From positions 70,585,092 to 70,649,091 of the forward strand of contig OX578282.1 in NCBI GenBank assembly GCA_951217055.1: a stretch of 64,000 nt of DNA, in the 5' to 3' direction. Of this stretch, positions 30,843 through 53,826 are shown one piece after another. How positions within the stretch are numbered: the first letter of the stretch is position 1; every line of letters begins with the position of its first letter. The translations under genes and the position numbers were made by a program. The notes below the pieces were generated by a model. The model was not told the DNA's origin and did not search any database. It saw only the letters and a program-made list of their open reading frames with translations. The stretch comes from Gerris lacustris (taxonomy: Eukaryota; Arthropoda; Insecta; Hemiptera; Gerridae).

Positions 30843-32160
30843 GTGGTACCAGGAGTTATCGATAAACAAGGTATCGTGAGAGTGAAGACAAGAATTATTA
30901 TGAGAGAAGACTTACTTAATTTCAAATATCCAATTTTATTACCTAAATCCCATCCAGTAGTACAAAAATTAATCCAGGAAACTCATGAAAAGAGCGGTCA
31001 TGCAGGAGTTGGTACACTTGTCAGTTTATTGAGAGAACGAATGTGGATTCTACAGTGTCGGCGTTCTGTCAAAAAGATAGTTGATCGTTGTGTAAGATGT
31101 CGTAGATTCAAGGCTAAGGCAACAATTGTAGAAATTGCTCCATTACCAAAGGATAGAGTAACAGATGCTGAGGTTTTTCAGATAGTGGGAGTAGATTTAG
31201 CTGGACCTCTACACCTGAAACATGGAGGCAAGGTATGGGTTGTCATTTTCACTTGTGCAGTATATCGAGCAGTTTATCTAGACATTGTAACATCTTTGAA
31301 AACTGAGTCATTCATACAGGTCATGAAGAGATTCATCCAGCAATATCGGCGACCAGAGGTGGTATACAGCGATAATGGGACACATTTTGTAGGAGCAGAC
31401 AATTTTTTTAGGAAGAACATAAATACCAAAATTATACCACCACTGCAACCAATAAATTGGAAGTTCAACCCCCCCTCAGCAGCTTGGTGGGGAGGGATGT
31501 GGGAGAGATTGATACGTACGATGAAAGACATAATGAAGAGAATGATCGGAAAGGCAATACTGAAGAAGCAAGAACTTGAAATAATCATAAAGGAAGTTGA
31601 AAGAATTATGAATAGCAGACCTCTGACCACACAATCTGAAGATCCTGAAGAATTAACTGCTCTAACACCAATGCATTTTCTAAAGGTCCATGGAGAATTT
31701 CGATTTCCGGAGGGAGAATTGTCAGAGGCATCAAGATTGCGTATAAGGATGAAGTATGTGCAAGAATTAAAGGAATCATTAAGGGGAAGATTTCGAAAAG
31801 AATATCTTGGCCAGTTGATTGACCGGCCAGGAACAAAGAAGAACACCCAACTGAGAGTCGTTAAGGGGAAGATTTCGAAAAGAATATCTTGGCCAGTTGA
31901 TTGACCGGCCAGGAACAAAGAAGAACACCCAACTGAGAGTCGGCGAAGTGGTGTTAATTGAAAATGACCATAAAAGGATAGAGTGGCTTCTGGGTCGAAT
32001 TTTGGAATTAATCCCCGGGAGAGATGGAGTCTGTCGGGTTGCAGTGCTGAAGACAAAAAACGGCACCTGTACTAGACCAATCCAAAGGCTCTATAAAATG
32101 GAATTGAGAGAAGATGGTCAGCAACAAAAGGGCCGGGAGGATGTTCAAGATATATTATGA
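30843..32160 (+). pseudogene. BEL/Pao integrase
   Basis: The frame 30843-31904 encodes the zinc-binding H..H..C..C region (HEKSGHAG to CVRCRRFK), then a retroviral-type DDE core: VGVDLAGPL (first Asp), YSDNGTHFVGA (second Asp) and NPPSAAWWGGMWERLIRTMK (catalytic Glu). The DUF5641-like tail follows but is interrupted by an 82-bp tandem duplication at about 31783-31945, after which the true tail continues in another frame from 31897 to 32160. The catalytic residues are intact; the product is truncated. The left end of the frame is open and fused to inverted RT sequence, so the real start is lost. Confidence 0.88.
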
Positions 32161-32167
32161 CACGACA

Positions 32168-32378
32168 GTGTCGTGTCATAATATATAAAAAATAATGTTT
32201 ATTAATTTTGGATTTTGTAAAAAGAAAGTGTTTAATGTTCAAATACAGTTTATGAGTGATATAGTTAACCAAGTATAGTAAGTTATTATATCTAAAGTAA
32301 TATTAATATCAGAGAAGAAACCGACGCAAAGGGTATTTGTGTACTGTGTTTCTAAAATCGTGGTGACCCCTAGTGAAA
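32168..32378 (+). mobile_element. Probable BEL/Pao LTR and primer-binding site
   Basis: Between the integrase stop (32158-32160) and the next gag ATG (32439) there is room for one LTR. It could start TGTCGTGTCATAATATATAA at 32168, which includes a TATA-like box. TGGTGACCCC at 32361-32370 starts with the TGG expected of a tRNA primer-binding site. A matching second LTR was not found, so the boundaries are tentative. Confidence 0.45.
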
Positions 32379-32438
32379 ACAGCAGTAAAGTACAAGGTAT
32401 AAATCAATTCTTTTTCAGTTTCATTATTAGTTAAAATC

Positions 32439-34658
32439 ATGGATCAATTGAAAATGAGAAGGAAGGTGTGTAGAAGCCAGGCTACTAGGATCTATAATGC
32501 AGTTAATATCTTGATTGGTCAAGAAAATCCCGACATCAATATTATTAGAACTGACGTAAACCATCTTCAAATCATACATGACAATTTAGACGAACTTGAC
32601 AAAAATATAGCAGAGTTGTTATACCTAGAAAATTCGACTTTTGAAGTATTAGATAAAGAAGCAACTGAAGTAAATGACTACAAACGAAAACTATTACTGG
32701 TAAGACAAAAATTGCAGGATATGGAATTATGTTCTGATGCTTCCAAGCAAATTCCTATCACCAATAACAATGTTTCGAATGAAAAAAGAAATTTCAAATT
32801 ACCGAAAATTCAACTAAAAACATTTTCAGGAGACTTAAAAGACTGGTTAGGCTTTTGGTCACAATTTGAAAAAATTCACAACGACAATTCATTACACGAC
32901 AGCGACAAAATGCAATATTTAATTATGGCTATGGAACCAGGGAGTGAAGCAAGAGAGATTGTTGAGAGCTACCCACAGACTGGAGGAAATTATCCTCTAG
33001 CTATTGAAGCTCTTAAAGAACGTTACGGCGACGAAGATTTACTCCTACAAGTATATGTTAGAGAATTGTTAAAACTAGTCATCACTAATGCAACAACGGA
33101 AGATAAATTACCCATACAGCACTTGTATTTGAAAATCGAATCGCATTTAAGATCACTCAAAACTTTAAATCTGTCTCAAGCAGATCCAGATACTTGGATT
33201 TATCCATTAGTAGAATCCAGTGTTCCTGAAGAAATTCTTCTAGCCTGGCAGAGAAGCACGAGTACCATTAGTCAACCAACCAAGACATCAAGAGTAGACA
33301 GCTTGATGACATTCCTAAAAAGTGAAGTCCAGATACAACAGAAAATCAGACTTGCGCAATCTGGATTTGAAGGAAAATTATCGGTTCACACAACATCCAA
33401 TGATAAGAAGAAAATAAAGAAAGAAAGGGAACCCACACTATCAAATTTTCAAGTCACGGAAGCTAAGGAGTGTATATTTTGCGGTAAAAATCATGAAGCT
33501 AAAGACTACATAATAGCACAGAAGATGACAATGCAACAGAAGAAAAATAAGTTGAAAGAAAAACGATGTTGTATGTTATGTTTCAAACCCAAACACATAG
33601 CTAGACAATGTAGAGCCTTTATAAAATGTGTCATATGTTCGAAAAGGCATAATGCGCTAATGTGTCCAGAACGTGAGATTAAGTCAGATAATTCTCCAAG
33701 AGAAACTGCAACAAATATTAAACTTGACACTGTTGCTGTTGGTGTGACAAAAGAAAGGAATAAAAATGTTGTACTACAAACATTAATGGTTGAAATAAAC
33801 AATAATGGTAAAACTAGGATGGTACGAGCATTTCTGGATAGCGGTTCGCAAAGGTCATACATTTTAAAAGAAGTTGCATCAGATCTAGGATTAAACCCTA
33901 TTGCAGAAGAGAGAGTAATACATTCACTTTTTGGAGGAGCTACTACAGGTAGTATCAATCATGATATTTTTTCAGTGAGACTCCAAAGGCCTGGAGGAGG
34001 GTATCATTGTGATGTTAAGCTAAGAAGTCAAAATAGTATTTCTAAATCGATACCAAAGATTAGAAGAGAAAAAATGTTAATGAAGGAATTAAAGGATCAT
34101 AAAATTTGGGTTTCAGATGTAGGTGAAAGTACTCCAGAAGTTGAAGTCCTATTAGGAGCGGACTTTTATGCTAAGTTGTTAACAGGAAAAATCATACACC
34201 TAAGTAAAGGAATTACGGCATTAGAAACATATTTAGGTTGGACGCTTTTAGGTGGAGGTGAGCATAGCAGTACATCAATGATAGCATATAATATAGATAT
34301 GTCAGTCTCAGATAAGGAAGTAGCGAAACTTTGGGATCTTGAAGTTATAGGTGTTAGGGACCCAATCGAAGTAAAATCAATGGTGGAGAAAGAAGCAGAG
34401 GTGAAAAAAGAATTTTTTGAAGCTTTAGAAAGGAAAGAGGATGGCAGATACATAGTTAGATTACCCTGGAAGAAGGGACATCCTCAGTTACCAACAAATA
34501 AAGAAATAGCGGTGAAGAGGCTTCAATCGGCAACTAGAAAACTTTTATCAGCAGATAATTTCGAATTGTATGGGAACATTTTTCAGAATTGGTTAAACGA
34601 AAATTTTATAGAAGAAGTCACGGAAGAATCTCAAGGTACAATGGTTCATTACTGCTAA
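32439..34658 (+). CDS. BEL/Pao gag-protease with start of reverse transcriptase
   Basis: The ATG at 32439 opens a 739-codon frame. A coiled-coil-like N-terminus is followed by a gag domain (FKLPKIQLKTFSGDLKDWLG, DUF1759-like, residues about 127-280), Cys/His knuckles around residues 347-410 (CIFCGKNHEAKDY, CCMLCFKPKHIARQC, CVICSKRHNALMC), an aspartic protease with AFLDSGSQRSYI near residue 465 and VLLGADFY near 570, and the linker into RT (LGWTLLGGG, RYIVRLPWKKGHPQLP). It stops soon after FIEEVTEES, just before the YLPHRPV motif. The frame is otherwise uninterrupted, so the insertion seems fairly young. Confidence 0.9.
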   Translation: MDQLKMRRKVCRSQATRIYNAVNILIGQENPDINIIRTDVNHLQIIHDNLDELDKNIAELLYLENSTFEVLDKEATEVNDYKRKLLLVRQKLQDMELCSDASKQIPITNNNVSNEKRNFKLPKIQLKTFSGDLKDWLGFWSQFEKIHNDNSLHDSDKMQYLIMAMEPGSEAREIVESYPQTGGNYPLAIEALKERYGDEDLLLQVYVRELLKLVITNATTEDKLPIQHLYLKIESHLRSLKTLNLSQADPDTWIYPLVESSVPEEILLAWQRSTSTISQPTKTSRVDSLMTFLKSEVQIQQKIRLAQSGFEGKLSVHTTSNDKKKIKKEREPTLSNFQVTEAKECIFCGKNHEAKDYIIAQKMTMQQKKNKLKEKRCCMLCFKPKHIARQCRAFIKCVICSKRHNALMCPEREIKSDNSPRETATNIKLDTVAVGVTKERNKNVVLQTLMVEINNNGKTRMVRAFLDSGSQRSYILKEVASDLGLNPIAEERVIHSLFGGATTGSINHDIFSVRLQRPGGGYHCDVKLRSQNSISKSIPKIRREKMLMKELKDHKIWVSDVGESTPEVEVLLGADFYAKLLTGKIIHLSKGITALETYLGWTLLGGGEHSSTSMIAYNIDMSVSDKEVAKLWDLEVIGVRDPIEVKSMVEKEAEVKKEFFEALERKEDGRYIVRLPWKKGHPQLPTNKEIAVKRLQSATRKLLSADNFELYGNIFQNWLNENFIEEVTEESQGTMVHYC

Positions 34659-36020: not shown

Positions 36021-36085
36021 TTTCTATTGAATCTTGTATAAATGAACCATACGCAATAGCCATGTTATTTATTGTCCCCGTCACT

Positions 36086-39000
36086 TCAATATGATTGTCC
36101 TACGTAATGATTCTTTTTAATCACTAAAGCCTGTTCTAACAACTCTTTTTCTTTTAACGGATCACCTAATGAACCATAAGCAATAGCTAGGTTATTTAAT
36201 GTCCTCACAACTTCAATATGATTGTCCCCGTAATGTTTCTTTTTAATTTCTACAGCCTGTTCTAACAACTCTTTTTGTTTTAATGGATCACCTAATAAAC
36301 CATAGGCATTACCTAGGTTATTTAATGTCCTCGCCACTTCAATATGATTGTCAGCATAATGTTTCACTTGAATCTCTAATACCCGTTCCAACAACTCTTT
36401 TTGTTTTAATAGATCACCTAATGAACCATACGCATTACCCAGGTTATTTAATGTACTCGCCACTTCAATATGATTGTCCCCGAAATGTTTCTTTAGAATC
36501 TCTAAAGCCTGTTCTAACAACTCTTTCTGTTTTAATGGATCGCCTAATGAACCATACCCATTAGCTAGGTTAGCTAATATTGCTGCCACTTCAATATCAA
36601 TGCTACCATAATGTTTCTTTGCAATCTCTAAAGCCTGTTCTAACAACTCTTTGTGTTTTCTTAGACTACCTAATGAGCCATACGCCTTACTTAGGTTAGT
36701 CAATGTCTCCGCCACTTTAATATGATTGTCACCGTAATGTTTCTTTTGCATCTCTAAAACCCGTTCTAACAACTCTTTTTCTTTTAATGGTACACCTAAT
36801 GAACCATACACATTACCTAGGATACGTAATGTTGCTGCCACTTCAATATGATTGTCACCGTAATATTTCTTTTGAATCTCTAAAGCCTGTTCTAACAACT
36901 CTATTTGTTCTAATGGATCCCCTAATGTACCACACGCGTTAGCTAGGTTAGCTAATGTTGCTGCCACTTCAATATGATGGTCACCATAATGTTTCTTTTT
37001 AATCTTTAAAGCCTGTTCTAGCAACTCTTTTTGTTTTAATGGTTCCCCTAATGGACCATACGCAATACCTAGGTTAACTAAAATCATCGCTACATCAGTA
37101 TGATTATGATTGTCACCGTAATGTTTTTTTGCAATCTCTAAAGCCTGTTCCAACAACTCTTTTTGTTTTCTTAGATTACCTAATGAGCCATGCGCATTAC
37201 TTAGGTTAGTCAATGTCCCCGCCACTTCAATATGATTGGAAGCGAAATGTTTCTTTTGAATCTCTAAAGCCCGTTCTAACAACTCTTTTTTTTTTAATGG
37301 ATCACCTAAAGAACCACACGCATTACCTAAGTTAGCTAATGTTGCTGCAATTTCAATATGATTGTCACCGTAATGTTTCTTTTGAATCTCTAAAGCCTGT
37401 TCTAACAACTCTTTTTGTTTTAATGGATCCCCTAATGAACCATACGAATTAGCTATGTAATAAAATGTCACCGCCACTTCTATATGAATTTTACCGTAAT
37501 GTATCTTTGCAATCTCTAAAGCCCGTTTTAACAACTCTTTTTGTTTTAATGGATCACCTAATGAACCATACGCATTAGCTAGGTTATTTAATGTCCTTGC
37601 CACTTCAATATGATAGTCACCGTAATTTTTCATTCTAATCTCTAAAGCCTGTTCTAACAACTCTATCTGTTTTAATGGATCACCTAATGAACCATACGCA
37701 TTACCTGTCTCAGCTAATGTTACTGCCACTTCAATATGATTGTCACCGTAATGTTTCTTTTCAATCTCTAAAGCCCGTTCTAACAACTCTTTTTGTTTTA
37801 ATGTATCACCTAATGAACCATACGCATTAGCTTGGTTATATAATGTCCTCGCCACTTTAATATTATTGTCACCGTAATGTTTCTTTTTAATCTCTAAAGC
37901 CTGTTCTAAGAACTCTATCTGCTTTAAAGGATCACCTAATGAACCATACGCATTACCTGTCTCAGCTAATGTTACTGCCACTTCAATATGATTGTCCCCG
38001 TAATGTTTCTTTTCAATCTCTAGAGCCCGTTCTAACAACTCTTTTTGTTTTAATGGTACACTTAATGAACCATATGCATTACCTAGGTTATGTAATGTTG
38101 CCGCCAATTCAATATGATTTTCACCGTAATGATTCTTTTGAATGTCTAGGGCCCGTTCTAACATTTCTTTTTGTTTTAATGGATCCCCTAATGAACCACA
38201 CGCATTACCTAGGTTATGTAATGTGTTTGCAATTTCTATATGATCGTCACCGTAATATTTCTTTTTAATCTTTAAAGCCCGTTGTAACAACTGTTTTTGA
38301 TTTAATGGTTTACCTAATTCGCCATACACATTACCTAGGTCATTTAATATCTCCGCCATTTTTATATGATTGTCACCATAATGTTTCTTTTGAATCTGTA
38401 AGGCCCGTTCTAACAACTCTTTTTCTTTAAATGGTTTACCTAATAAACCATACGCATTACCTAAGTTAGCTAATGTTGTAGCCATTTTAATATGATTGTC
38501 ACCGTAATGTTTCTTTTGAATCTCTAAAGCCTGTTCTAACAACTCTTTTTGTTTTAATGAATCACCTAATGAACCATACGCATTAGCTAGGTTGTGTAAT
38601 GTCCTTGCCACTTTTATATTATTGTAACCGTAATGTTTCTTTTTAATCTCTAAAGCCCTTTCTAACAACTCTTTTTCATTTAATGAATCACCTAAAGCAT
38701 TATATCCTTGAGACATGAATGGCTCTAATTTAATTAGGTTGGATTCAGCTATATTTTTATAATCGGAATATATTAGTGAACAATTATCCATATATGATAA
38801 AAATGTTTCTGAATGAGTTAGTATCTGGCGTAATAATGTATTGTTTGGGTTTTTATTAACATTTTTAAAATATGTTATTAATATCGCCAAAGCATCGGTA
38901 CAGGTTTGCTGTTCTTTTCTTTGATCTTTTAAAATAATTCTTGTAACCTGCTGCAGCAGTCGGTGAATGTTAATTTGTGATTTTTCTTTTCCTGAATTAA

Positions 39001-40936
39001 CTAGTGAATACTGTCTTAGTAGTTGTATGATTGACCCCAGCATTTCTTTATCACCTTTTATCAGTTGTAGTTCTAATAACATTTCCACTGGAATATTATC
39101 AGGAGCTAGTAAAGCAATTATATCTAATATCTGACTGGCCTGCTCTCCATATTCCTTATTTCCTTTTATTTTATCAATGGTGATTTTCATAATAGTGAAT
39201 GAACTTTTAGTGTACGAATCTCTACTATCTTCTGGAAACTCAAAATCAAGTAGATTCTTCGTTTCTTGATCGTATCTTTGGATGTAGTCAATAATTTTAA
39301 ATTCAGACCCTACATTTAATAATGCAGCATTCTTTACTTTGATGTATGCCACTGCTTGCTGTAATGCTAGGGGGAAATACTGAAGTGTCTCTGCCAATCT
39401 TTTAACGTCAGGGTGTTGCGACGAATCTGCAATATTCAGTTCCCTTGTTACAAAATCCAAAGCTTCTCTTTCTGTAAACACGTCTAAGACTATCAGTGGA
39501 GTTTCTCCCCAACTCTGGTTTCGAGAAGTAATTAAGACTTTCGGTGAGTTATTTCCTTGGGGTAGATTATACGACGGTAAGAAATTCATTATACCAATTG
39601 TTTCACTCCGTAATTTCTCTGCATTATCAAATATAAACAGACATTTCCTTCCGGTAAAGAAGTTTAAAACGTCCTTTACGACATATTGAATATCCCTTTT
39701 ATCAACAGAAATACTTAGGTGATTTGTAGCAAGTTCTTTAAATGAATTTTCGGTTGTTTCACGAGTTTCTGAGTCGATCCAAATAATGTTTTGGTATTCT
39801 TGGCCGAACTCTAATATATATTTCCTCACTAACTCGGTTTTACCGATTCCGCCCATTCCGCTGAGTGAGACCTGCTGGCATATTAGAGCAGTTTCTTCTG
39901 TATTTAACAAATCGTGCATTTTCTTTAACGTTTCTTCTCTCCCGACGAAAGATTCTATTGGTTTTCGAACATTAAAATTAAAACAATTGCTGATTTCTTT
40001 TTTTATCTCGGCGAAGAGTGCAATCCCGTCTTCCCGGGTGAGAAAATGCACTTGCTCGCCTTTTAGCCAATTAGTCATCCATTCATGGAAGCGATAGTAA
40101 ACGTTGTTGGCGTCGATGAAATTAAATTCATCCCTCAAATCATGCTTAATTATTATCGACAACAATGCCTCGTTGGGTTGATCTACAGCAAATATTAGAC
40201 TGTCGAAATATTGTTTTATTTCCTCTTCTAAATCTCCGTGCAATATAAGTTTCAAAGATTCCCATTGTCGAATCTGTTGTTCGGAAGCATTTTTATTTGA
40301 ATTGAAGTTTCCCTTTTTCATTATCTCTTGTATCAGGATTTCCTTGAAGTACGGTTTCAAGATGGTGACGATGTTGGAATCGTAGTGAAACTTGTACCTC
40401 ACACCTTTGTCTTTGAAGAAGTGGTAGTAGTCATCGACCAACTCAACGAAGACTTCATTACAATAAGACACGACTTTCTTGAGGTTCCTCTCATTTTCAT
40501 TGGTGTAACCTGGGTCCAACCAGAAATTTGTATTAGTGCAGAGAATGACGTTTTTTAGTACACAGCCGCCGAAGTCAGGATTATTCTTGATCTTCAGAAA
40601 AGAAATGAAATACTTAGCTAAATTAAAATCACCTACTCTTCCTCTGTTGTTCCTCTGGATCAAATCTTCCCCTTTGATTCGTTCAAAACCATCCTTTTGT
40701 TTGGCTATTATCAGGACAAGTTCATTGGTATCGTTATTCCGGATGACTACGTCATCAAATTTATCCGCCGCCTTGATTCCCGACGCTAAAATAAAGTCGT
40801 AGCCTCTATAAAGGGCTCTCATTAGAGACAGCATGAGGAATTTCACCTGATAATCGTAACCGCGAATTCGAGGCTGCCCGGAGCCGATAAACGTTTCATT
40901 CATTTTAGTTGTTTTTCCTATATTTGTTTCGTTCAT
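36086..40936 (-). CDS. NB-ARC/TPR STAND protein with nuclease-like N-terminus (NLR-like)
   Basis: The ATG at 40936 gives about 1616 residues in one exon. Residues 1-330: an animal-specific domain whose start (RGYDYQVKFLMLSLMRAL, then FDDVV and LIIAKQK) resembles DUF4297/PD-(D/E)XK-type regions; the usual Gln of the Q-x-K motif appears to be Ile, so catalysis is doubtful. Residues about 335-560: NB-ARC with Walker A SGMGGIGKTELV, Walker B CLFIFDNAE, sensor-like VLITSRN and FPLALQQA. Residues 560-740: helical/winged-helix part with an IHRLLQQV motif in place of MHD. Residues about 746-1616: 20 full and one partial 42-residue kinesin-light-chain-type TPRs (LGDPLKQKELLEQALEI, KKHYGDNHIEVA). Known relatives oligomerise on ligand sensing; the ligand here is unknown. 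An indel near 36105 puts the 21st repeat out of frame; repeat homology continues to about 36041 and then meets gypsy sequence. The gene is intronless. Confidence 0.88.
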   Translation of the reverse strand: MNETNIGKTTKMNETFIGSGQPRIRGYDYQVKFLMLSLMRALYRGYDFILASGIKAADKFDDVVIRNNDTNELVLIIAKQKDGFERIKGEDLIQRNNRGRVGDFNLAKYFISFLKIKNNPDFGGCVLKNVILCTNTNFWLDPGYTNENERNLKKVVSYCNEVFVELVDDYYHFFKDKGVRYKFHYDSNIVTILKPYFKEILIQEIMKKGNFNSNKNASEQQIRQWESLKLILHGDLEEEIKQYFDSLIFAVDQPNEALLSIIIKHDLRDEFNFIDANNVYYRFHEWMTNWLKGEQVHFLTREDGIALFAEIKKEISNCFNFNVRKPIESFVGREETLKKMHDLLNTEETALICQQVSLSGMGGIGKTELVRKYILEFGQEYQNIIWIDSETRETTENSFKELATNHLSISVDKRDIQYVVKDVLNFFTGRKCLFIFDNAEKLRSETIGIMNFLPSYNLPQGNNSPKVLITSRNQSWGETPLIVLDVFTEREALDFVTRELNIADSSQHPDVKRLAETLQYFPLALQQAVAYIKVKNAALLNVGSEFKIIDYIQRYDQETKNLLDFEFPEDSRDSYTKSSFTIMKITIDKIKGNKEYGEQASQILDIIALLAPDNIPVEMLLELQLIKGDKEMLGSIIQLLRQYSLVNSGKEKSQINIHRLLQQVTRIILKDQRKEQQTCTDALAILITYFKNVNKNPNNTLLRQILTHSETFLSYMDNCSLIYSDYKNIAESNLIKLEPFMSQGYNALGDSLNEKELLERALEIKKKHYGYNNIKVARTLHNLANAYGSLGDSLKQKELLEQALEIQKKHYGDNHIKMATTLANLGNAYGLLGKPFKEKELLERALQIQKKHYGDNHIKMAEILNDLGNVYGELGKPLNQKQLLQRALKIKKKYYGDDHIEIANTLHNLGNACGSLGDPLKQKEMLERALDIQKNHYGENHIELAATLHNLGNAYGSLSVPLKQKELLERALEIEKKHYGDNHIEVAVTLAETGNAYGSLGDPLKQIEFLEQALEIKKKHYGDNNIKVARTLYNQANAYGSLGDTLKQKELLERALEIEKKHYGDNHIEVAVTLAETGNAYGSLGDPLKQIELLEQALEIRMKNYGDYHIEVARTLNNLANAYGSLGDPLKQKELLKRALEIAKIHYGKIHIEVAVTFYYIANSYGSLGDPLKQKELLEQALEIQKKHYGDNHIEIAATLANLGNACGSLGDPLKKKELLERALEIQKKHFASNHIEVAGTLTNLSNAHGSLGNLRKQKELLEQALEIAKKHYGDNHNHTDVAMILVNLGIAYGPLGEPLKQKELLEQALKIKKKHYGDHHIEVAATLANLANACGTLGDPLEQIELLEQALEIQKKYYGDNHIEVAATLRILGNVYGSLGVPLKEKELLERVLEMQKKHYGDNHIKVAETLTNLSKAYGSLGSLRKHKELLEQALEIAKKHYGSIDIEVAAILANLANGYGSLGDPLKQKELLEQALEILKKHFGDNHIEVASTLNNLGNAYGSLGDLLKQKELLERVLEIQVKHYADNHIEVARTLNNLGNAYGLLGDPLKQKELLEQAVEIKKKHYGDNHIEVVRTLNNLAIAYGSLGDPLKEKELLEQALVIKKNHYVGQSY

Positions 40937-41258: not shown

Positions 41259-41688
41259 AAGGAAGAAGTTTCATCTAATATATTTGTTGGCTGAACTAGG
41301 TGAGGAAGAAGTTTCATCTAATATATTTGTTGGCTGAACTAGGCGAGGAAGAAGTTTCATCTAATATATTTGTTGGCTGAACTAGGCGAGGAAGAAGTTT
41401 CATCTAATATATTTGTTGGCTGAACTAGGCGAGGATGAAGTTTCATCTAATATATTTGTTGGCTGAACTAGGCGAGGAAGAAGTTTCATCTAATATATTT
41501 GTTGGCTGAACTAGGCGAGGAAGAAGTTTCATCTAATATATTTGTTGGCTGAACTAGGCGAGGAAGAAGTTTCATCTAATATATTTGTTGGCTGAACTAG
41601 GCGAGGAAGAAGTTTCATCTAATATATTTGTTGGCTGAACTAGGCGAGGATGAAGTTTCATCTAATATATTTGTTGGCTGAACTAGGC
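41259..41688. repeat. 43-bp minisatellite, ten copies
   Basis: The unit begins GAGGAAGAAGTTTCATCTAA and ends GGCTGAACTAGGC. Ten near-identical tandem copies start at 41259 and continue every 43 bp, and an eleventh breaks off at 41699. Differences are few (GTGAGG versus GCGAGG, GATG versus GAAG). It lies upstream of the NLR-like gene. The period is not a multiple of three, so it is not coding. Confidence 0.95.
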
Positions 41689-43005
41689 GAGGAAGAAGTG
41701 GCGGCGACACAGAAGCTGGAGTCAGGATTGTGATGCGAGGGTTTGCTGCCTTGTAATCAGTCCAATCACTTCAAACTCTTAACGTTTTTTGCCACTGCTC
41801 TAAAAAAAGAATAACAAATTGGTAAAATAAATAACATTATATTATGTAATATAAATAACAATATAAACATTAATATATAGATTTGTCAAACATCAGTTAT
41901 TAAAGAATTTTTGTTTTTTAAACCCTTTTTTTGTTTGTTTGTTTGTTTGTTTGTTTGTTTGTTTGTTTGTTTGTCGGTTTCTGTTCTCTTTTGTCTGAGG
42001 TTACAATCCTTGGAGGAATAATTAGCCCTCTTCCAGTCATCCAATCCAACTGAAACCTTCCACATGGGCTTTGTACCAAGACAGATCAAATTAATTAATT
42101 AATTAATTGAAATAAATTTAAATCATAATTGATCAATTATAATTTAATTAATTAAAATTTAATTAATATTAATTATAAATTACTTATTAAATTAAAACAG
42201 TCTGGCAATTAGTGTGGCACATAGCTTCCTCGCTTCTATTTAGTTTACTTTAATGATTTCATGCTTTTACAACCTATTTTTATTTTTTTTTTTTTTTTAA
42301 TCTGTCAAAATTGTTTTGATATTTTATCTGAATTAAAGTATCAATTTAACAAAACTTAATGAGCGCAGATGGTTTAAATTAATCTGGGGCTATCTGCGGT
42401 CTACGTTTAACTAACCATCAATATTTTATAAAAAACAGATGAGTGCTTTTAAAGATATACGTGTAAATACATCTATGTTGAAGTATGTATGACTGTATGA
42501 CACAAATAGCAGCGGAAGATTGAAACTCATATGAGACCAACATTGGGCTTATTATGACCTACCATCCAAATTTCATAAAAATAGGACGAGTAGTTTTTAA
42601 GATATGGTGGTTTGCAAAAATTGAACGACAGACAGACAGTCAGACAGACAGACTGACAGACATGGACCCAAATATGTTCCCTGATGTGTGAAACGGAATT
42701 TTTGACATTTTAGACATGAAAATGGTTTGTTTATCAGAATGATCACATAGTTTCCCTTACCTTAGGTAAGATCGAAAACAACATAAATATAAATGTGTTT
42801 TTTTAAAAAAAAAAAAACTTAATTACAAGCAATTTATTACTTTCTATTAATTAATCAATAATAAATATATTAATTAACAAATAATCTTGCCGATGGATCA
42901 CAAATTTATAAATATACACAACCAAAATGAATTTATAAAAACAACTGTGTTCTTATGTACCAGTATTATTTTGATTGGCTTTAAAGCTCATATGATTTTT
43001 TGAAC
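41689..43005. other. No gene seen; simple repeats
   Basis: (GTTT)n at about 41934-41975, (TTAA)n near 42088-42110 and a CAGA-type run at about 42627-42662 followed by CATGGACCCAAATATG. No coding frame is supported. Confidence 0.55.
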
Positions 43006-44399: not shown

Positions 44400-45400
44400 G
44401 AAATTTAGTTAAACGTTATTTAATAGAGGTATTGCAGGCTCGCTATGATCGCACGTTTATACACGAGTTGTAATAATGTTATTGTTGGCTCGCCCTGTAT
44501 AGACAGCATTTAAAATTAGTTTTCATTTAACTGATTTATTGCAGGTTCGCTAAGCTCACCAGTTAATTTAGCATTTCTGGATAATATGAGCCGTATAAAC
44601 TTGCCTGCAACAAATGCATAACTTAAGATTTTGTTCAAAAACTGTATAAACAGGCGAGCATAGCGAGCCTTCTTTAATTTTAATAAATAATGATTATATA
44701 TAAAAACTGTATAAACAGGCGAAGGTATAGTGAGCCTGCATTTATTATATTAAATAATGATTACGTACTAATACTGTATAAACAGGCGAGCGTAGCGAGC
44801 CTACGATAACTTTATTTAATAAATATATACTACAAATTCTGAATCAAACAGGCGAGCGCAGTGAGCCTTCTTTAATTTTATTAAATAATTACTATATTTA
44901 CTGTATAAACAGGCGAGCATAGCGAGCCTTCTTTAATTTGATTAAATAATTACTATACTTAGTATAGAAACAGATGAGCGTAGCGAGCCTACAATAACTC
45001 TATTTAATAAATATTTACTACATATGCTGAACAACAGGCGAGCGTAGCGAGCCAACAATAACTATTTATTAAATCTTTACTAAAAATGCTGAATCAACAG
45101 GCAAGCGTAGCGAGCCTACAATAACTCTATTTAATAAATATTTACTACAAATGCTGAATCAACAGGCAAGCGTAGCGAGCCTACAATAACTCTATTTAAT
45201 AAATATTTACTACAAATGCTGAATCAACAGGCAAGCGTAGCGAGCCTTCTTTAATTTTATATTAAATAATTACTATATTTACTGTATAAACAGGCGAGCA
45301 TAGCGAGCCTTGCATTAATCGTATTAAATAATGATTACTTACAAATATTGTATAAATATTTAGAGCCTGAGTTAATATTATTAAATAAAGATAATGGACA
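44400..45400. repeat. Array of GAGCGNAGCGA hairpin monomers, block 1
   Basis: At least a dozen monomers of about 60-75 bp. The motif has arms CAGGC and GCCTG around the core GAGCGNAGCGA, with AT-rich linkers such as TTTAATAAATATTTACTACA and TTAAATAATTACTATA. The first few, near 44440-44550, are degenerate or in the opposite orientation. No coding frame. Confidence 0.88.
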
Positions 45401-45404
45401 AAAT

Positions 45405-46200
45405 AATTGAACGAGCGGAGTGAGTTCTTCATATCATAGACTTGGGCTTTGAAAAGTTTGTGTGTTTGTATGTTTGTTTGTCCAACGATAACTGGCGCAA
45501 AACTTGATCGATTTGCACGAAATTCGGCACATAGATGCTTCTTAGCATTTGTGAGAACTGTATAGTTTTTGGAAATTCCAAACTAAACATTTCCAAGATG
45601 GCGGCCAATATAGCGGACGGCTAAAATTAAAAGTTTTAGTCAGCATAATGAGTTATACATCATTTTATAGGTCCTTAAGAGAAGTTAAAGAATATGTAAT
45701 TAATAAAATATCACACATCATATTTCCAAGATGGCGGCCAATATGGCGGACGACTAAAATAAAAAGTATTAATCAGCATAATGTGTTATACATCGTTTTA
45801 AAGGTCTTTATGAGAAGGAATAGAATATGTAACGAATTAAATTCCACACTTTATATTTACAAGATGGCAGCCAATAAGACGGACGACTAAACAAAAAGTT
45901 TTTAGTCAGTATGGCATGTTTATACATAATTTTTAAGGGCTTAAAGTCTAGAAAAGGAATATCTATCAATTATAATTTCACACATTATATTTTCAAAATG
46001 GCGGCAAAGATAACGAATACTAAGAAAAATTTTAGTCTGCATGACATGTTATACATCCTTTTAAAGTAGGAAAAGTGTAAGTAACTAGTAAAATATTTAT
46101 TTTAATAAAAATGGTGGCCTGTATGATGGGCAACTAAAGAAAAAGTTTTAGTTAGCATATGTTATACATCGTTTAACAGGTATTTCAAAATATATATATA
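45405..46200. repeat. Composite repeat block 2: leader plus ATGGCGGC units
   Basis: The same leader as at 43006 (GAACGAGCGGAGTGAGTTC, TTTGTTTGTCCAACGATAAC) followed by about five units with AAGATGGCGGCCAATA and CAGCATAATG(A/T)GTTATACATC. Divergence rises toward the end of the block. Confidence 0.85.
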
Positions 46201-46204
46201 TATA

Positions 46205-46745
46205 TACAAAACGCTGGTATAAACAGGCGAGCTTAGCGAGGCTGCAGTAAATTTATTAAAGTAACAATACTGTATAAAAAGGCAAAAACAGCGAGCCTGC
46301 AATAATATTATTGAATAAAGATTACGTAGAAATGCTGTATAAGCAGGAAAGCGTAGTGAGCCTGTAATAAAAAAATATATTTACTGCAAATGTTGTAGAA
46401 ACAGGCGAGCGTAGTGAGCCTGCAATAATTTTTATTAAAGAAAATATTTACTACAAATGCTGTAGTAACATCGAGCGTAGTGAGCCTGTTATAACTTTAT
46501 GAAATAAATATTAAGTACTAATGCAGTATAAACATATAAATGCATTTAATCATTAACTAAAGATTATGAAAAAATACTTCTACAACAGGGGAGCGTAGCG
46601 AGCCTGCAATCACTCTAATATATAACTATTTATTACAAATGCAATATAAACAGGCGAGCGCAGCGAGCCTGATTTAATTTCATTAAGAAAAATTATGAAA
46701 AAATACTTCTACAACAGGCGAGCGAAGCGAGCCTGCAATCATTTT
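46205..46745. repeat. Array of GAGCGNAGCGA hairpin monomers, block 2
   Basis: About eight monomers with the same arms and core, many with single changes (GCGTAGTGAGCC, AAAGCGTAGTGAG). AT-rich linkers. No gene. Confidence 0.85.
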
Positions 46746-46747
46746 AT

Positions 46748-47570
46748 TTTTGAACGAGCGCAGTGAGTTCTTCATTACAGAGACTTGGGATTTGAAAAGT
46801 TTGTGTGTTTGTTTGTGTGTTTGTTTGTTTGTGTGTTTGTGTGTTTGTTTGTCTAACGATAACTGGAGTAAAAATTGATAAATTTCAACGAAATTTGGCA
46901 CATATATGCATCGCAGCATTTGTGAGAAGTGTATAGTTCTTGGAAATTCCTCAACCAATATTTTCAAGATGGCGCCCAATGTGGCGGACGACAAAAAAAG
47001 AAAGTTTTAGTCAGCATAATGTGTTATACATCGTTTTAAAGATCTTTAAGAGGAGGAAAAGAATATGTATAATACATTTTCACATTTAATATTTTCAAGA
47101 TGGCGGCCAATATGGCGGACGACTATAAAAAAAAGTTTTAGCCAGCATAATGTGTTACACATAGTTTTAAAGGTCTTTAAGAGATGAAAAGGAATATGTA
47201 TTTAATAAAATTTCTCAGTTCATATTTTCAAGATGGCGGCCAATATGGCGGACGACTAAAATAAAAAGTTATATCCAGCATAATGTGTTATACATCGTTT
47301 TAAAGGCCTTTAAGAGGAGGATAAGAATATGTAACTAATAAAATTTTACACTTAATATTTTCAAGATGGCGGTCAATATGGCGGACGACTAAACAAACAG
47401 TTTTTAGTCAGTATGACATGTTATACATCAATTTAAAGCTGTTGAAGTCTAGAAAAGGAATATCCAACTATTCAAATTTCAAACATAATATTTTTAAAAT
47501 GGCGGCCAATATAAAGAAAACAAAAAAAAGTTTTACATATAATAACATGTTATAATAAAAAGGAATTTTA
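46748..47570. repeat. Composite repeat block 3: leader plus ATGGCGGC units
   Basis: The third copy of leader and units. The leader contains GAACGAGCGCAGTGAGTTC and (GTTT/GTGT)n, and about five units with AAGATGGCGGCCAATATGG and GGACGACTAAA follow. The segment is better preserved than block 2. Confidence 0.85.
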
Positions 47571-47599
47571 AAGGCTACAGATTATGTACTAATACTGTA

Positions 47600-50500
47600 T
47601 AAAAAGGCGAGCACAGCGAGCTGGCATTCATTTTATTATATAATTATTATGTACAAATACTTTTACAACAGGTGAGCGTAGTGAGCCTGCAATAATATTA
47701 TTAAATAAAGATTATGCAGGAATGCTTTTATAACAGGCGAGCGTAGCGAGCCTGCATTAATATTATTAATATTATTGCTCGCTGCGCTCGCCTGTTATAA
47801 AAGTCATTTAATCATTTTAATAAAGTTATTTAATCATTTTATTAAATAAAATATTTACTACAAATGTATGCTGTATGAACAGGCGAGCGCAGCGAGCCTG
47901 CAATAATATTATTAAATAAAGATTATGTAGAAATACTGTATAAACAGGCGAGCATAGCGAGCCTGCATTAATATTACTTTTATAACAGGCGAGCGCAGCG
48001 AGCCTGCAATAATATTATTTAATAAAGATTATGTAGAAATACTGTATAAACAGGTGAGCGTAAAGAGCCTGCATTAATATTATTAAATAAAGATTATGCA
48101 GAAATGCTGTTTTAACAGGCGAGCGCAGCGAGCCTGCAATAATATTATTAAATAAAGATTATGCAGAAATGCTTTTATAACAGGCGAGCGTAGCGAGCCT
48201 GCATTAATATTATTAAATAAAGATTATGCAGAAAATGCTTTTATAACAGGCGAGCGTAGCGAGCCTGCATTAATATTATTAAATAAAGATTATGTAGAAA
48301 TGCCGTATAAACAGGCGAGCGTAGCGAGCCTGTATTAATATTACTTTTATAACAGTCGAGCGTAGTGAGCCTGCAATCATTTTATTAAATAAAATATTTA
48401 CTACAAATGTATGCTGTATGAACAGGCAAGCGCAGCGAGCCTGCAATAATATTATTTAATAAAGATTATGTAGAAATACTGTATAAACAGGCGAGCGTAG
48501 CGAGCCTGCATTAATATTACTTTTATAACAGGCGAGCGCAGCGAGCCTGCAATAATATTATTTAATAAAGATTATGTAGAAATACTGTATAAACAGGTGA
48601 GCGTAAAGAGCCTGCATTAATATTATTAAATAAAGATTATGCAGAAATGCTGTTTTAACAGGCGAGCGCAGCGAGCCTGCAATAATATTATTAAATAAAG
48701 ATTATGTAGAAATACTGTATAAACAGGCGAGCATAGCGAGCCTGCATTAATATTACTTTTATAACAGGCGAGCGCAGCGAGCCTGCAATAATATTATTTA
48801 ATAAAGATTATGTAGAAATACTGTATAAACAGGTGAGCGTAAAGAGCCTGCATTAATATTATTAAATAAAGATTATGCAGAAATGCTGTTTTAACAGGCG
48901 AGCGCAGCGAGCCTGCAATAATATTATTAAATAAAGATTATGCAGAAATGCTTTTATAACAGGCGAGCGTAGCGAGCCTGCATTAATATTATTAAATAAA
49001 GATTATGCAGAAATGCTTTTATAACAGGCGAGCGTAGCGAGCCTGCATTAATATTATTAAATAAAGATTATGTAGAAATGCCGTATAAACAGGCGAGCGT
49101 AGCGAGCCTGTATTAATATTACTTTTATAACAGTCGAGCGTAGTGAGCCTGCAATCATTTTATTAAATAAAATATTTACTACAAATGTATGCTGTATGAA
49201 CAGGCGAGCGCAGCGAGCCTGCAATAATATTATTAAATAAAGATTATGTAGAAATACTGTATAAACAGGCGAGCATAGCGAGCCTGCATTAATATTACTT
49301 TTATAACAGGCGAGCGCAGCGAGCCTGCAATAATATTATTTAATAAAGATTATGTAGAAATACTGTATAAACAGGTGAGCGTAAAGAGCCTGCATTAATA
49401 TTATTAAATAAAGATTATGCAGAAATGCTGTTTTAACAGGCGAGCGCAGCGAGCCTGCAATAATATTATTAAATAAAGATTATGCAGAAATGCTTTTATA
49501 ACAGGCGAGCGTAGCGAGCCTGCATTAATATTATTAAATAAAGATTATGCAGAAATGCTTTTATAACAGGCGAGCGTAGCGAGCCTGCATTAATATTATT
49601 AAATAAAGATTATGTAGAAATGCCGTATAAACAGGCGAGCGTAGCGAGCCTGTATTAATATTACTTTTATAACAGTCGAGCGTAGTGAGCCTGCAATCAT
49701 TTTATTAAATAAAATATTTACTACAAATGTATGCTGTATGAACAGGCAAGCGCAGCGAGCCTGCTATAATATTATTTAATAAAGATTATGTAGAAATACT
49801 GTATAAACAGGCGAGCGTAGCGAGCCTGCATTAATATTACTTTTATAACAGGCGAGCGCAGCGAGCCTGCAATAATATTATTTAATAAAGATTATGTAGA
49901 AATACTGTATAAACAGGTGAGCGTAAAGAGCCTGCATTAATATTATTAAATAAAGATTATGCAGAAATGCTGTTTTAACAGGCGAGCGCAGCGAGCCTGC
50001 AATAATATTATTAAATAAAGATTATGCAGAAATGCTTTTATAACAGGCGAGCGTAGCGAGCCTGCATTAATATTATTAAATAAAGATTATGCAGAAATGC
50101 TTTTATAACAGGCGAGCGTAGCGAGCCTGCATTAATATTATTAAATAAAGATTATGTAGAAATGCCGTATAAACAGGCGAGCGTAGCGAGCCTGTATTAA
50201 TATTACTTTTATAACAGTCGAGCGTAGTGAGCCTGCAATCATTTTATTAAATAAAATATTTACTACAAATGTATGCTGTATGAACAGGCAAGCGCAGCGA
50301 GCCTGCAATAATATTATTTAATAAAGATTATGTAGAAATACTGTATAAACAGGTGAGCGTAAAGAGCCTGCATTAATATTATTAAATAAAGATTATGCAG
50401 AAATGCTGTTTTAACAGGCGAGCGCAGCGAGCCTGCAATAATATTAATAAATAAAGATTATGTAGAAATACTGTATAAACAGGCGAGCATAGCGAGCCTG

Positions 50501-52065
50501 CATTAATATTACTTTTATAACAGGCGAGCGCAGCGAGCCTGCAATAATATTATTTAATAAAGATTATGTAGAAATACTGTATAAACAGGTGAGCGTAAAG
50601 AGCCTGCATTAATATTATTAAATAAAGATTATGCAGAAATGCTGTTTTAACAGGCGAGCGCAGCGAGCCTGCAATAATATTATTAAATAAAGATTATGCA
50701 GAAATGCTTTTATAACAGGCGAGCGTAGCGAGCCTGCATTAATATTATTAAATAACGATTATGCAGAAATGCTTTTATAACAGGCGAGCGTAGCGAGCCT
50801 GCATTAATATTATTAAATAAAGATTATGTAGAAATGCCGTATAAACAGGCGAGCGTAGCGAGCCTGTATTAATATTACTTTTATAACAGTCGAGCGTAGT
50901 GAGCCTGCAATCATTTTATTAAATAAAATATTTACTACAAATGTATGCTGTATGAACAGGCGAGCGCAGCGAGCCTGCAATAATATTATTAAATAAAGAT
51001 TATGTAGAAATACTGTATAAACAGGCGAGCATAGCGAGCCTGCATTAATATTACTTTTATAACAGGCGAGCGCAGCGAGCCTGCAATAATATTATTTAAT
51101 AAAGATTATGTAGAAATACTGTATAAACAGGTGAGCGTAAAGAGCCTGCATTAATATTATTAAATAAAGATTATGCAGAAATGCTGTTTTAACAGGCGAG
51201 CGCAGCGAGCCTGCAATAATATTATTAAATAATGATTATGCAGAAATGCTTTTATAACAGGCGAGCGTAGCGAGCCTGCATTAATATTATTAAATAAAGA
51301 TTATGCAGAAATGCTTTTATAACAGGCGAGCGTAGCGAGCCTGCATTAATATTATTAAATAAAGATTATGTAGAAATGCCGTATAAACAGGCGAGCGTAG
51401 CGAGCCTGTATTAATATTACTTTTATAACAGTCGAGCGTAGTGAGCCTGCAATCATTTTATTAAATAAAATATTTACTACAAATGTATGCTGTATGAACA
51501 GGCAAGCGCAGCGAGCCTGCAATAATATTATTTAATAAAGATTATGTAGAAATACTGTATAAACAGGCGAGCGTAGCGAGCCTGCATTAATATTACATTT
51601 ATAACAGGCGAGCGTAGTGAGCCTGCAATCATTTTATTAAATAAAATATTTACTACAAATGCATGCTATATAACGTTATTAAATTAAGATTATGTGAAAT
51701 GTTGTATAAACCGGCGAGTGTAGCGAGCCTGCATTTATATTATTAAATAAATATTACGTACAAATGTTGTATAACCAGGCGAGCGCAGCGAGCCTGCAAT
51801 AATTTTTATTAAATAAAGATAATGTAAAAATGCTATATAAACAGGTGAGCGCAGCGAACCCGCAATATTTTTATTAAATAAATATTATATAGAAATGCGG
51901 TATAAATTGGCGAGTGTAGCGAGCATGTATTACTATTATTAAATAAATATTAGTTACAAGCGCTATATAACCAGGCGAGCGTAGCGAGCCTGCATTAATA
52001 TTATTAAATAAAGATTTTATAGGTAAAAACTGGTGAGCGTGGTGAGCCTTTAATGACTTTATTAA
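47600..52065. repeat. Higher-order satellite of hairpin monomers (542-bp HOR)
   Basis: About 75 monomers, each with arms CAGGC and GCCTG around GAGCG(T/C)AGCGA, separated by AATATTATTAAATAAAGATT and related linkers. The marker variant CAGTCGAGCGTAGTGAGCC recurs at 48353, 49131, 49673, 50215, 50887 and 51429, spaced 778, 542, 542, 672 and 542 bp. The 542-bp unit holds nine monomers of about 41 or 65-69 bp; the longer spacings contain extra monomers. Copies are nearly identical within the HOR, while the edges (before 47850 and after 51650) are degenerate, the pattern of unequal exchange. One monomer near 47776 is inverted. Confidence 0.92.
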
Positions 52066-52071
52066 ATATGG

Positions 52072-53036
52072 ATTATGTACGGATGAAAGGAAAACAGTTT
52101 AGCTCCTGTGAACTTGCGAATTTATACGAAATTTAATTCGGCTCACATCATCTCGGTCCTATAATATGACGATTAAAGAGCATGATATACCATACATTGT
52201 TTTAAAAGGCTTTATGAGTAGCAAAGTTTTTCAACAAATGTGACCGAGATGAGGGTGTTAAAAAGTAAGCTTATTCTTATTGCTGTTTTTCGTAAAATGA
52301 TTTTAAACCTGTTTTCAGGTTGAATAAGAATGTGTTAGGTTTTCACCGAAAAATTATCCTGGTAGCAATATTGAGAACATAGTATGGGTGATGTACTCAT
52401 AAGACCTCAATCTATGCGAGTTCTTTATGCACCGCATCACTAGTATAAATATTTATTACAAATGATGTAGCAACAGGCGAGTGTAGCGAGCCTGTAATAA
52501 CTTTATGTAATAAATATCAAGTACAAATGCAGTATATACAGGCAAGCCTAGCGAGCCTGCAATCATTTTATAATATAAATATTTACTAGTGATGTGGTGC
52601 ATAAAGAACTCGCGTAGATTGTGGTCTTATATCACCCATACTATGTTCTCAATTTTGCTACCAGGATAATTTTTAGGTGAAAACCTATCATTCTCTTATT
52701 CTTATTCAACCTGAAAAGAGCTTTAAAATGATTTTACGTAACACAGCATATATAAGAATAAGCTTACTTTTTAACACCCTCATCTCGGTCACATTTGTTT
52801 AGAAAACATTTGTAGCAATAGTTACATTCATTTGATACTCATACTCATAAAGCCTTAAAACAATGTACGGCGTGTCATGCGTAATACAATCTTCCTCTTT
52901 AATCGTCTTTATTATTGGCCCAATTCTAAAATTTAAAAATGTCAAACAACCGAGATGCTGTGAGCCGAATTTAATTTCGTATAAATTCTCCAGTTCTCGG
53001 TAGCTAAAACCGTTTTACTTTTATCCGTACATAATC
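52072..53036. repeat. Large inverted repeat interrupting the hairpin satellite
   Basis: The arm from GATTATGTACGGATGAAAGG (about 52071) to about 52460 is inverted from about 52580 to CCGTACATAATC (about 53035). Shared blocks include CGAAATTTAATTCGGCTCAC, ACATTTG/CAAATGTGACCGAGATGAG, AATAAGCTTACTTTTTAACA and TGCATAAAGAACTCGCG. The spacer of about 120 bp contains hairpin monomers. No coding frame. It marks the switch from forward to reverse monomer orientation. Confidence 0.85.
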
Positions 53037-53039
53037 TTC

Positions 53040-53345
53040 ATTTAATTAAATGATTGCGGCTCGCTACGCTCGCCTGGTAATGCAGCATTAGTACATAATA
53101 TTTATTAAATAATATTATTGCAGGCTCGCTACGCTCGCCTGTTGTAAACGTATTTCTTCATAATCATTATGTAATAATATAAATGCTCTGGCTCGCTACG
53201 CTCGCCTGGTAATACAGCATTAGTACATAATATTTATTTAATAATATTAATGCAGGCTCGCTACGCTCGCCTGTTGTAAACGTATTTTTTCATAATCTTT
53301 ATGTAATAATATTAATGTTCTGGCTCGCTACGCTCGCCTGGTAAT
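53040..53345 (-). repeat. Hairpin monomers in reverse orientation
   Basis: About five monomers read GGCTCGCTACGCTCGCC on the plus strand, the complement of the main array, alternating two linkers (GGTAATACAGCATTAGTACA and GTTGTAAACGTATTT). Confidence 0.88.
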
Positions 53346-53826
53346 ACAGCATTAGTACATAATATTTATTTAATAATATTAGTAGAGAAAAAAAGATGAC
53401 TCAAAAGTGGGGAGCAGGGAGCAATGTCGTCACGCCAAAGCCTCCCCCGCCTCCACTGCCTCCGGCTCATAAATCGTACAAGAACACTCCAAGGTCACCG
53501 ATTTAGGGTCAAATTTAGGTGCCGCCTCCAATTAGGGTCAAATTTAGGTGCCGCCTCCACTTCCTCTTGCTCCTAAATCGTACAAGTACACGTCAAGGTC
53601 AACTACTATATTTTGAGGCTCGCGGTCCGACAAAGATCATGACAAGGTCACCTATTATATTTAATTTACTCGGAAAATTCATCCAACCGTGAAGTGTGAG
53701 AAATTATAATTATAACACCGATTTAAAAATAGCTCTTACAATGATAATATAGGATAATTAAATACAAAAAATGGAAGGAATATGATTAAACAAAGTCAAA
53801 TAAATATATGAAGAAATAAACAATAC
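53346..53826. other. No gene seen; short GC-rich repeats
   Basis: GCCTCC-rich segment with TTAGGGTCAAATTTAGGTGC given twice (about 53502 and 53525) and AAATCGTACAAG(A/T)ACAC twice (about 53470 and 53575), followed by AAGGTCA words. It might be a regulatory or end region of the adjacent virus-like locus; that is a guess. Confidence 0.4.

Follow-up and report, generated by a model that had tools for sequence, protein, structure and literature searches.

The window, a stretch of 64,000 nucleotides of Gerris lacustris DNA, carries a gene for a modular protein whose N-terminal module has a Cap4/DUF4297-like nuclease fold and is followed by an NB-ARC switch of the STAND type and a long array of tetratricopeptide repeats (TPRs). 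Our reading, which we hold with a probability of about 0.55, is that the gene belongs to an expanded insect STAND family resembling NOD-like receptors (NLRs), in which a bacterial-type Cap4/DUF4297 nuclease serves as the effector, an Apaf-1/NB-ARC domain as the switch, and the TPRs as the sensor, and that the window copy is a nuclease-dead paralogue. The identity of the parts, in both fold and domain order, is well supported; ligand recognition, oligomerization, DNA cutting, and an immune role we infer by analogy. The loss of conserved Glu, Gln, and His residues, together with a nuclease that is almost unconstrained relative to the nearest copy and a switch that is constrained, makes a nuclease-dead paralogue most likely.

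Domain architecture and the altered nuclease motif

In a search of its own genome (937 Mb in 69 contigs), the window gene was recovered as a full-length match on the 73-Mb contig C7 (G000:C7:70621180-70626027). The first-pass annotation had called it intronless, which holds for the coding part, a single open frame of 1616 amino acids (aa); an intron in the 5' untranslated part may exist. When neutral change was simulated as substitutions without indels, with 300 runs for each distance (0.05, 0.12, and 0.2 changes per site), no run left the frame open, the fewest stops being four, so the open frame is not due to chance. To that extent the gene has survived, as had been proposed, but it is no isolated survivor, since 15 full-length open copies exist.

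The proposal of a nuclease-like N-terminus is borne out by fold and not by sequence family. Structure comparison of the N-terminal model gives a clear match to the PD-(D/E)XK fold of the Cap4/DUF4297 type, and the 20 best-matching solved structures are all bacterial defence proteins with this fold. A Pfam search of the N-terminus in 16 members at E values up to 10 yielded scattered matches only (PDDEXK_9 in one of 16; E = 0.19), and the best E value in a PDB profile sequence search was 0.12. PADLOC gave no match for the N-terminus of the window copy and weak ones in paralogues only: SAVED_PDDEXK in 8 of the 16 members (best E, 0.0018), PDC-M13A in three (0.0015), Csx1 in two (0.00064), LmuA in two (0.0042), and HamA in one (0.0044). 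Its REase_II match to the full protein (6.2e-8) was discarded, as it sits in the TPRs (1354-1389).

Relatives share the consensus F.LATEIEAA.KFDDVVF...QAKHK, in which D61, D62, and K79 show no variation across 25 aligned sequences and E53, Q77, and H80 hardly any; a catalytic role for these residues is expected from the PD-(D/E)XK superfamily motif. The window copy reads FILASGIKAADKFDDVVI...IIAKQK. Within residues 20-150, taking the positions with at least 95% agreement over the 20 other compared rows, this copy departs from the consensus exactly three times, at E53G, Q77I, and H80Q (conserved in 19/19, 20/20, and 20/20 of the compared rows having a residue there), while each of the other 14 Gerris copies departs once or not at all. 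Beyond residue 150, it also departs at E266D and D289N. The D..(Q/E)xK(H) motif is conserved in 14 of the 15 Gerris copies and altered in the window copy, which, judged from these residues, has probably lost the ability to cut DNA. Loss of motif residues recurs in the family, as a Dinoponera protein lacks one motif Asp and protein P0185 lacks the motif Gln; in Gerris, paralogue c1_29.1 is without the four motif residues TEIE.

For the switch, the NB-ARC assignment is confirmed by Pfam (residues 335-518; E = 2.5e-8), which also places DUF7779 at residues 597-673 (E = 1e-9). The window copy has a Walker A motif (GMGGIGKT at 360), a Walker B motif (LFIFDNA), and the sequence INIHRL, and the combination of Walker A and B, a winged helix with a conserved His, and an Apaf-1-like fold identifies an NB-ARC/Apaf-1-type STAND ATPase. 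Apaf-1 and plant NLRs top the 50 best matches listed for the switch model in structure comparison. A classical animal NLR combines NACHT with LRRs, and the protein does not fit that type, in agreement with the first-pass annotation: at E values up to 1, Pfam gives NB-ARC and TPRs, with neither NACHT nor LRR.

The anticipated count of about 21 TPRs agrees with the array (TPR_12; E = 3.4e-119), in which 19 full units of 42 aa and one of 44 aa precede a truncated last unit. The description of these units as near-identical was too strong, as mean identity among 19 units is 66% in protein and 80% in DNA; the closest pair, units 6 and 8, reaches 97% in DNA. Array-like DNA extends about 45 bases beyond the stop codon, indicating that the last unit is cut by the stop, and an AATAAA read from the sequence lies within this remnant (36068-36073).

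Expansion, constraint, and repeat turnover in Gerris lacustris

The window protein gives 42 matches in its own genome, and the 15 full-length open copies (1061 to 1731 aa, without coding introns) are spread over C1, C2, C4, C7, and a small scaffold, C42; the c1_4.18 copy lacks an ATG at the usual position. That the genome is an insect's is borne out by 101 matches to the odorant-receptor family 7tm_6, which gave none in 14 control genomes. As the copies on C42 and at C1:148.46 Mb have upstream flanks 93% identical over 1.5 kb, they may be two alleles of one locus, which would leave perhaps 14 loci. Broken copies are found at C2:5.05 Mb (6 and 24 stops in two stretches), C7:1.515 Mb (15 stops), and C2:8.385 Mb (4 stops). 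Over 13 pairs, the ratio of nonsynonymous to synonymous change (dN/dS) ranges from 0.27 to 0.52 in the switch and from 0.07 to 0.93 in residues 20-150, and dS in the switch exceeds 0.4 for 7 of the 13. For the window copy and its nearest copy, c7_72.121, the values are 0.34 in the switch and 0.93 in residues 20-150. The family has expanded in Gerris lacustris, and its switch is under constraint.

Upstream matches longer than 250 bases that reach the gene occur between close copies only (c42/c1_148, c7_72.092/c7_72.155, c1_6.43/c1_6.76, and window/c7_72.121). Blastn of the upstream flanks found no block common to all copies, and a multiple alignment of five flanks had no clear common block, so the blastn flank matches are a hint only. 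The unit of a 43-base minisatellite upstream of the window gene matches single places upstream of two C7 paralogues, and the minisatellite is possibly part of the 5' leader or promoter region. Two further loci on C1 (L017, 496-3381, at 4.13 Mb, and L020, at 4.16 Mb) hold open frames of 961 and 827 aa with similar TPR arrays. By eye, the L017 protein has TPRs only, without nuclease or NB-ARC, preceded by a hydrophobic membrane-like stretch; the two are possibly membrane-anchored TPR-only relatives.

The TPRs turn over within this family, and their variation is concentrated on the ligand face. A profile built from the window copy, which may therefore miss far-diverged units, recognizes 210 TPRs over the Gerris copies, 5 to 22 per copy. 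At the DNA level, units of the window copy resemble each other more closely (mean, 80%) than they do their best counterparts in any other copy (mean of best, 64 to 79%), indicating turnover within the array. Among the 19 window units, overall dN/dS, a check specified beforehand, is 0.73. Nonsynonymous change was then counted between units inside each of the 15 copies and is highest, among the 42 unit positions, at 24, 27, 31, and 35, which in our own alignment are TPR positions 2, 5, 9, and 13 (0.51, 0.44, 0.36, and 0.33, above the mean synonymous value of 0.272). Magliery and Regan list positions 2, 5, 9, 12, 13, 33, and 34, on the concave face, as the most variable in TPRs (PMC1261162). These seven average 0.305, against 0.153 elsewhere (p = 0.00035; 20,000 draws).

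Table 1. Features of the window gene and its flanks (positions in the window).
Feature	Residues	Positions	Strand	Details
Whole coding frame, without coding intron	1-1616	36086..40936	(-)	ATG at 40936, stop at 36086-36088
N-terminal module: Cap4/DUF4297-like PD-(D/E)XK nuclease fold and helical tail	1-325	39962..40936	(-)	
Altered nuclease motif	53-80	40697..40780	(-)	E53G, Q77I, H80Q; D61, D62, K79 kept; alignments
STAND switch: NB-ARC, DUF7779, helical region	326-759	38660..39961	(-)	
TPR array: 20 full units and one truncated	755-1616	36089..38674	(-)	
Repeat-DNA remnant beyond stop codon, ~45 bases		36041..36085	(-)	Tandem Repeats Finder (TRF) array 36041-38695
43-base minisatellite, 10.2 copies, upstream of gene		41260..41699	not assigned	TRF and blastn of upstream flanks

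Elsewhere in the window there are 11 other frames of at least 150 aa, of which 8 were scanned, with Pfam matches in 7. Frames of retroelement type (RVT_1, endonuclease, integrase, aspartyl protease) lie at 68-1765, 18172-20873, 30843-34658, and 59067-60461, with a weak DNA polymerase B match at 68-1765. Large arrays of ~65-base units with common CAGGCGAGCGTAGCGAGCCTG-like cores occupy 44636-53381.

Relatives, transfer, and competing explanations

A protein search with residues 1-760 returned 80 proteins, with Wolbachia on top (45% identity over 97%; E down to 3.4e-181), and homology over the N-terminus and the switch places the window gene in a Wolbachia/arthropod nuclease-NB-ARC-TPR family. 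Among the best 120 of 313 proteins from a profile search is Nasonia vitripennis LOC100678007, on a 28-Mb contig, which holds the nuclease core, NB-ARC, TPRs, and ankyrins. In a tree of 36 rows, the 15 Gerris copies form one clade (100/100), and Nasonia, Dinoponera, and Temnothorax (the last from a contig of only 19 kb) fall in another, with Wolbachia of Tetranychus (100/100). A single clade of the 18 insect rows is rejected (approximately unbiased test, p-AU = 6.3e-7), implying, if the record labels are right, two or more transfers of genes between bacteria and insects. The family thus appears to have moved more than once between intracellular bacteria (Wolbachia, other Rickettsiales, Rickettsiella) and arthropods. 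In Wolbachia contig L036, the frame adjoining the relative is presumably secA, and no phage gene was recognized by eye beside it.

The nuclease core is also joined to another switch. Within 0.27 Mb of C3 (G000:C3:9442803-9704479), frames of 2134, 1595, and 1575 aa at 9.44, 9.64, and 9.70 Mb combine it with NACHT (35.5, 33.6, and 31.4 bits; cut-off, 26.7), and a remoter core-NACHT relative at C2:103.6 Mb scores 26.4 bits, just below the cut-off. Two more remote relatives, whose open frames span 1736 and 999 aa, lie at G000:C2:6002667-6063021. Searching with the C3:9.64 Mb protein retrieved 73 proteins. We examined 74 (69 new ones and five insect proteins found earlier); the core is present in 72 and the D..(Q/E)xK(H/N) pattern in 67, with one (P0200) a doubtful match. 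Apolygus P0058 and P0088, found by full-length searches, are without the core and were set aside. Proteins with the core are labelled with 18 arthropod species, covering assassin bug, mealybug, adelgid, beetles and weevils, sawflies, ants, Nasonia, fungus gnat, two Daphnia, and millipede. Over the motif, Callosobruchus P0210 is nearly the same as Wolbachia P0050, so P0210, and perhaps other proteins labelled as arthropod, may stem from a recent insertion or from contamination. A search of genome contigs yielded four loci from 112 stretches. For viral contigs, 192 stretches matched a pattern and tblastn found no relatives among them, and viral structures gave no match at E = 0.001.

Several observations weigh against a nuclease-dead member of an immune family. 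The window copy lacks residues expected to be necessary for a working nuclease of the PD-(D/E)XK Cap4 type, and relaxed constraint on its nuclease region fits decay too. When three outgroup copies are included, 22 changes are private to the window copy and 3 to c7_72.121 in residues 20-150, against 14 and 3 in 151-325 and 28 and 0 in 326-750, an excess in every region which indicates that the window lineage is fast overall and not in the nuclease alone. These rates are blurred by gene conversion, a sign of which is that c7_72.121 and the outgroup c7_72.155 (C7, 72.12 and 72.155 Mb) have near-identical switches but differing N-terminal parts (dS, 0.054 and 0.656); conversion by itself pushes the c7_72.121 count in 326-750 towards 0. 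No Avs entry is among the 50 best matches listed for the switch model, a listing which excludes nothing. In the array, TPR positions 12, 33, and 34 are not raised (0.18, 0.19, and 0.13), while the off-list unit positions 11 (0.32) and 21 (0.30) also exceed the synonymous mean, and concave-face variation is general to TPRs and no proof of an arms race (PMC1261162). Finally, the link of the Gerris clade to other clades is weakly supported (63/22), and as the tree is also unrooted, transfer may have run in either direction.

The genes could instead be symbiont-derived passengers, effector genes of Wolbachia type that were repeatedly copied into arthropods and multiplied without a settled immune job, with the window copy decaying. 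This would suit the closest named relatives being Wolbachia proteins, the scatter of insect rows that several transfers predict, the likeness of P0210 to P0050, the motif lost in the window copy, the gap in c1_29.1, and the broken pieces on C2 and C7. In ants, moreover, ankyrin proteins, every one of Wolbachia origin, account for 245 of 497 inferred transfers from bacteria, and how conserved these were did not predict their expression (PMC13320244). We nevertheless consider it unlikely: 15 copies have stayed open although dS in the switch is above 0.4 for 7 of 13 pairs, the neutral runs all lost the frame, switch dN/dS is 0.27 to 0.52 over the 13 pairs, and the copies form one clade with long inner branches, unlike fresh imports. 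Less probable again is an insect origin followed by capture, with unchanged sensor-nuclease biology but with Wolbachia and other symbionts acquiring the genes from arthropods as a means of mimicking host sensors or interfering with them. The bacterial defence proteins that head the structures with this fold speak against it, as does the presence of bacteria in several parts of the tree, which, being unrooted, shows neither direction; on its side are the core in proteins labelled insect, Daphnia, and millipede, and phage WO gwv_1093, whose N-terminal sequences sit among diverse arthropod homologues and for which arthropod-to-phage transfer was argued by parsimony, the reverse being called plausible (PMC5062602).

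A selfish or toxin-like gene, related to the large modular toxins known in Wolbachia and Rickettsia and aimed at sibling cells, sperm, or embryos rather than at pathogens, seems improbable to us, for no antidote-like partner was recognized among the 8 window frames scanned, the effector motif of the window copy is altered, and a sensor array with ligand-face diversity suits recognition better. The same module does stand beside OTU (PF02338) in P0049, P0200, and P0217, and beside PF02902, which we take to be a C48-type peptidase, in P0230 and P0238; modular toxins that combine OTU, PD-(D/E)XK, and ankyrin domains have been described (PMC7750005). A transposon-borne gene or an assembly artefact we regard as very improbable. 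The window is rich in retroelement frames, and short upstream stretches, some inverted, are common to distant copies; these look like dispersed repeats. Against this reading, the long flank matches are confined to close copies and no block is common to all, the gene lies on a large contig with kin on C1, C2, C4, and C7, and Pfam finds no mobile-element domain in the protein.

If the window family is, as we favour, a set of nuclease-bearing sensors, then Avs, Cap4, and apoptosome-type proteins suggest how it would work: the concave TPR face would bind a foreign or danger ligand, the NB-ARC switch would exchange ADP for ATP and oligomerize, and clustered nucleases would cut DNA, so that a virus or symbiont is stopped or the cell is killed. 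The window copy might sense and assemble without cutting, as a regulator, decoy, or partner of active copies. Its role as a nuclease-dead partner is a guess, whose main rival, a copy on its way to loss, we consider less likely.

More broadly, and tentatively, arthropods may maintain a permanent set of nuclease sensors of Avs-like design, a single Cap4-type module having been shuffled onto NB-ARC-TPR, NB-ARC-TPR-ankyrin, and NACHT(-ankyrin) receptors and repeatedly exchanged with intracellular bacteria, with ligand faces under diversifying selection and nuclease-dead members serving as regulators or decoys. Insects are generally considered NLR-poor. Such a repertoire would give animals a cell-autonomous immunity that cuts DNA, much as bacterial anti-phage systems do, and intracellular symbionts would have provided a direct path by which antiviral defence passed from bacteria into animal immunity. 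The testable claim that follows is that canonical paralogues cut DNA once assembled and that the nuclease-dead window copy modulates them, and the insect and Wolbachia copies are a natural pair for asking in which direction genes flow between host and symbiont.

Comparison with known systems

Avs proteins are defined by an N-terminal effector, a central STAND domain, and a C-terminal repeat sensor. Pfam and fold matches recover this order in the window protein, and the first-pass interpretation is partly supported, as regards the Avs-like order and the turnover of the sensor; what departs from it is the altered effector motif. From Avs3 and other Avs proteins, the window protein differs in its NB-ARC/Apaf-1-like switch, its insect host, and that altered motif, and no kinship was found at the sequence level. 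Nucleases such as Cap4, LmuA, HerA-DUF4297, and HamA work with cyclic nucleotides or with SMC-like or helicase partners, whereas the window nuclease is fused to an NB-ARC-TPR sensor. In passages of PMC8195603, REase effectors are named on bacterial STAND-type systems and not on arthropod proteins, and among the open-licence PMC papers listed by our searches, none describes Cap4-type nuclease-STAND proteins in arthropods by its title or opening lines.

The Wolbachia/Rickettsiales NB-ARC-TPR proteins (P0004, P0021, L036) and the arthropod proteins of Nasonia (LOC100678007) and Dinoponera (LOC106740649) have the same domain order, with homology across nuclease, switch, and TPRs. Canonical D..QxKH is kept in the aligned Wolbachia rows and in Nasonia, whereas the window copy is altered and has more TPRs; the Nasonia and Dinoponera proteins add ankyrin repeats, and the Gerris clade is separate from theirs. 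Like the window family, the phage WO protein gwv_1093 is described as a TPR protein, belonging to the eukaryotic association module, with N-terminal homologues in many arthropods, including Nasonia, but it carries ankyrin repeats (PMC5062602); compared by this description, its N-terminus is likely the same nuclease. Fungal NB-ARC-TPR NLRs carry other effector domains, and the fungal matches of the window gene are remote (Fusarium P0079, 23%; E = 6.4e-6). The TPRs of these fungal receptors, for which kinesin light chain served as the modelling template, nonetheless resemble those of the window family in being conserved internally, changing in repeat number, and having diversifying sites on the concave face (PMC4986451).
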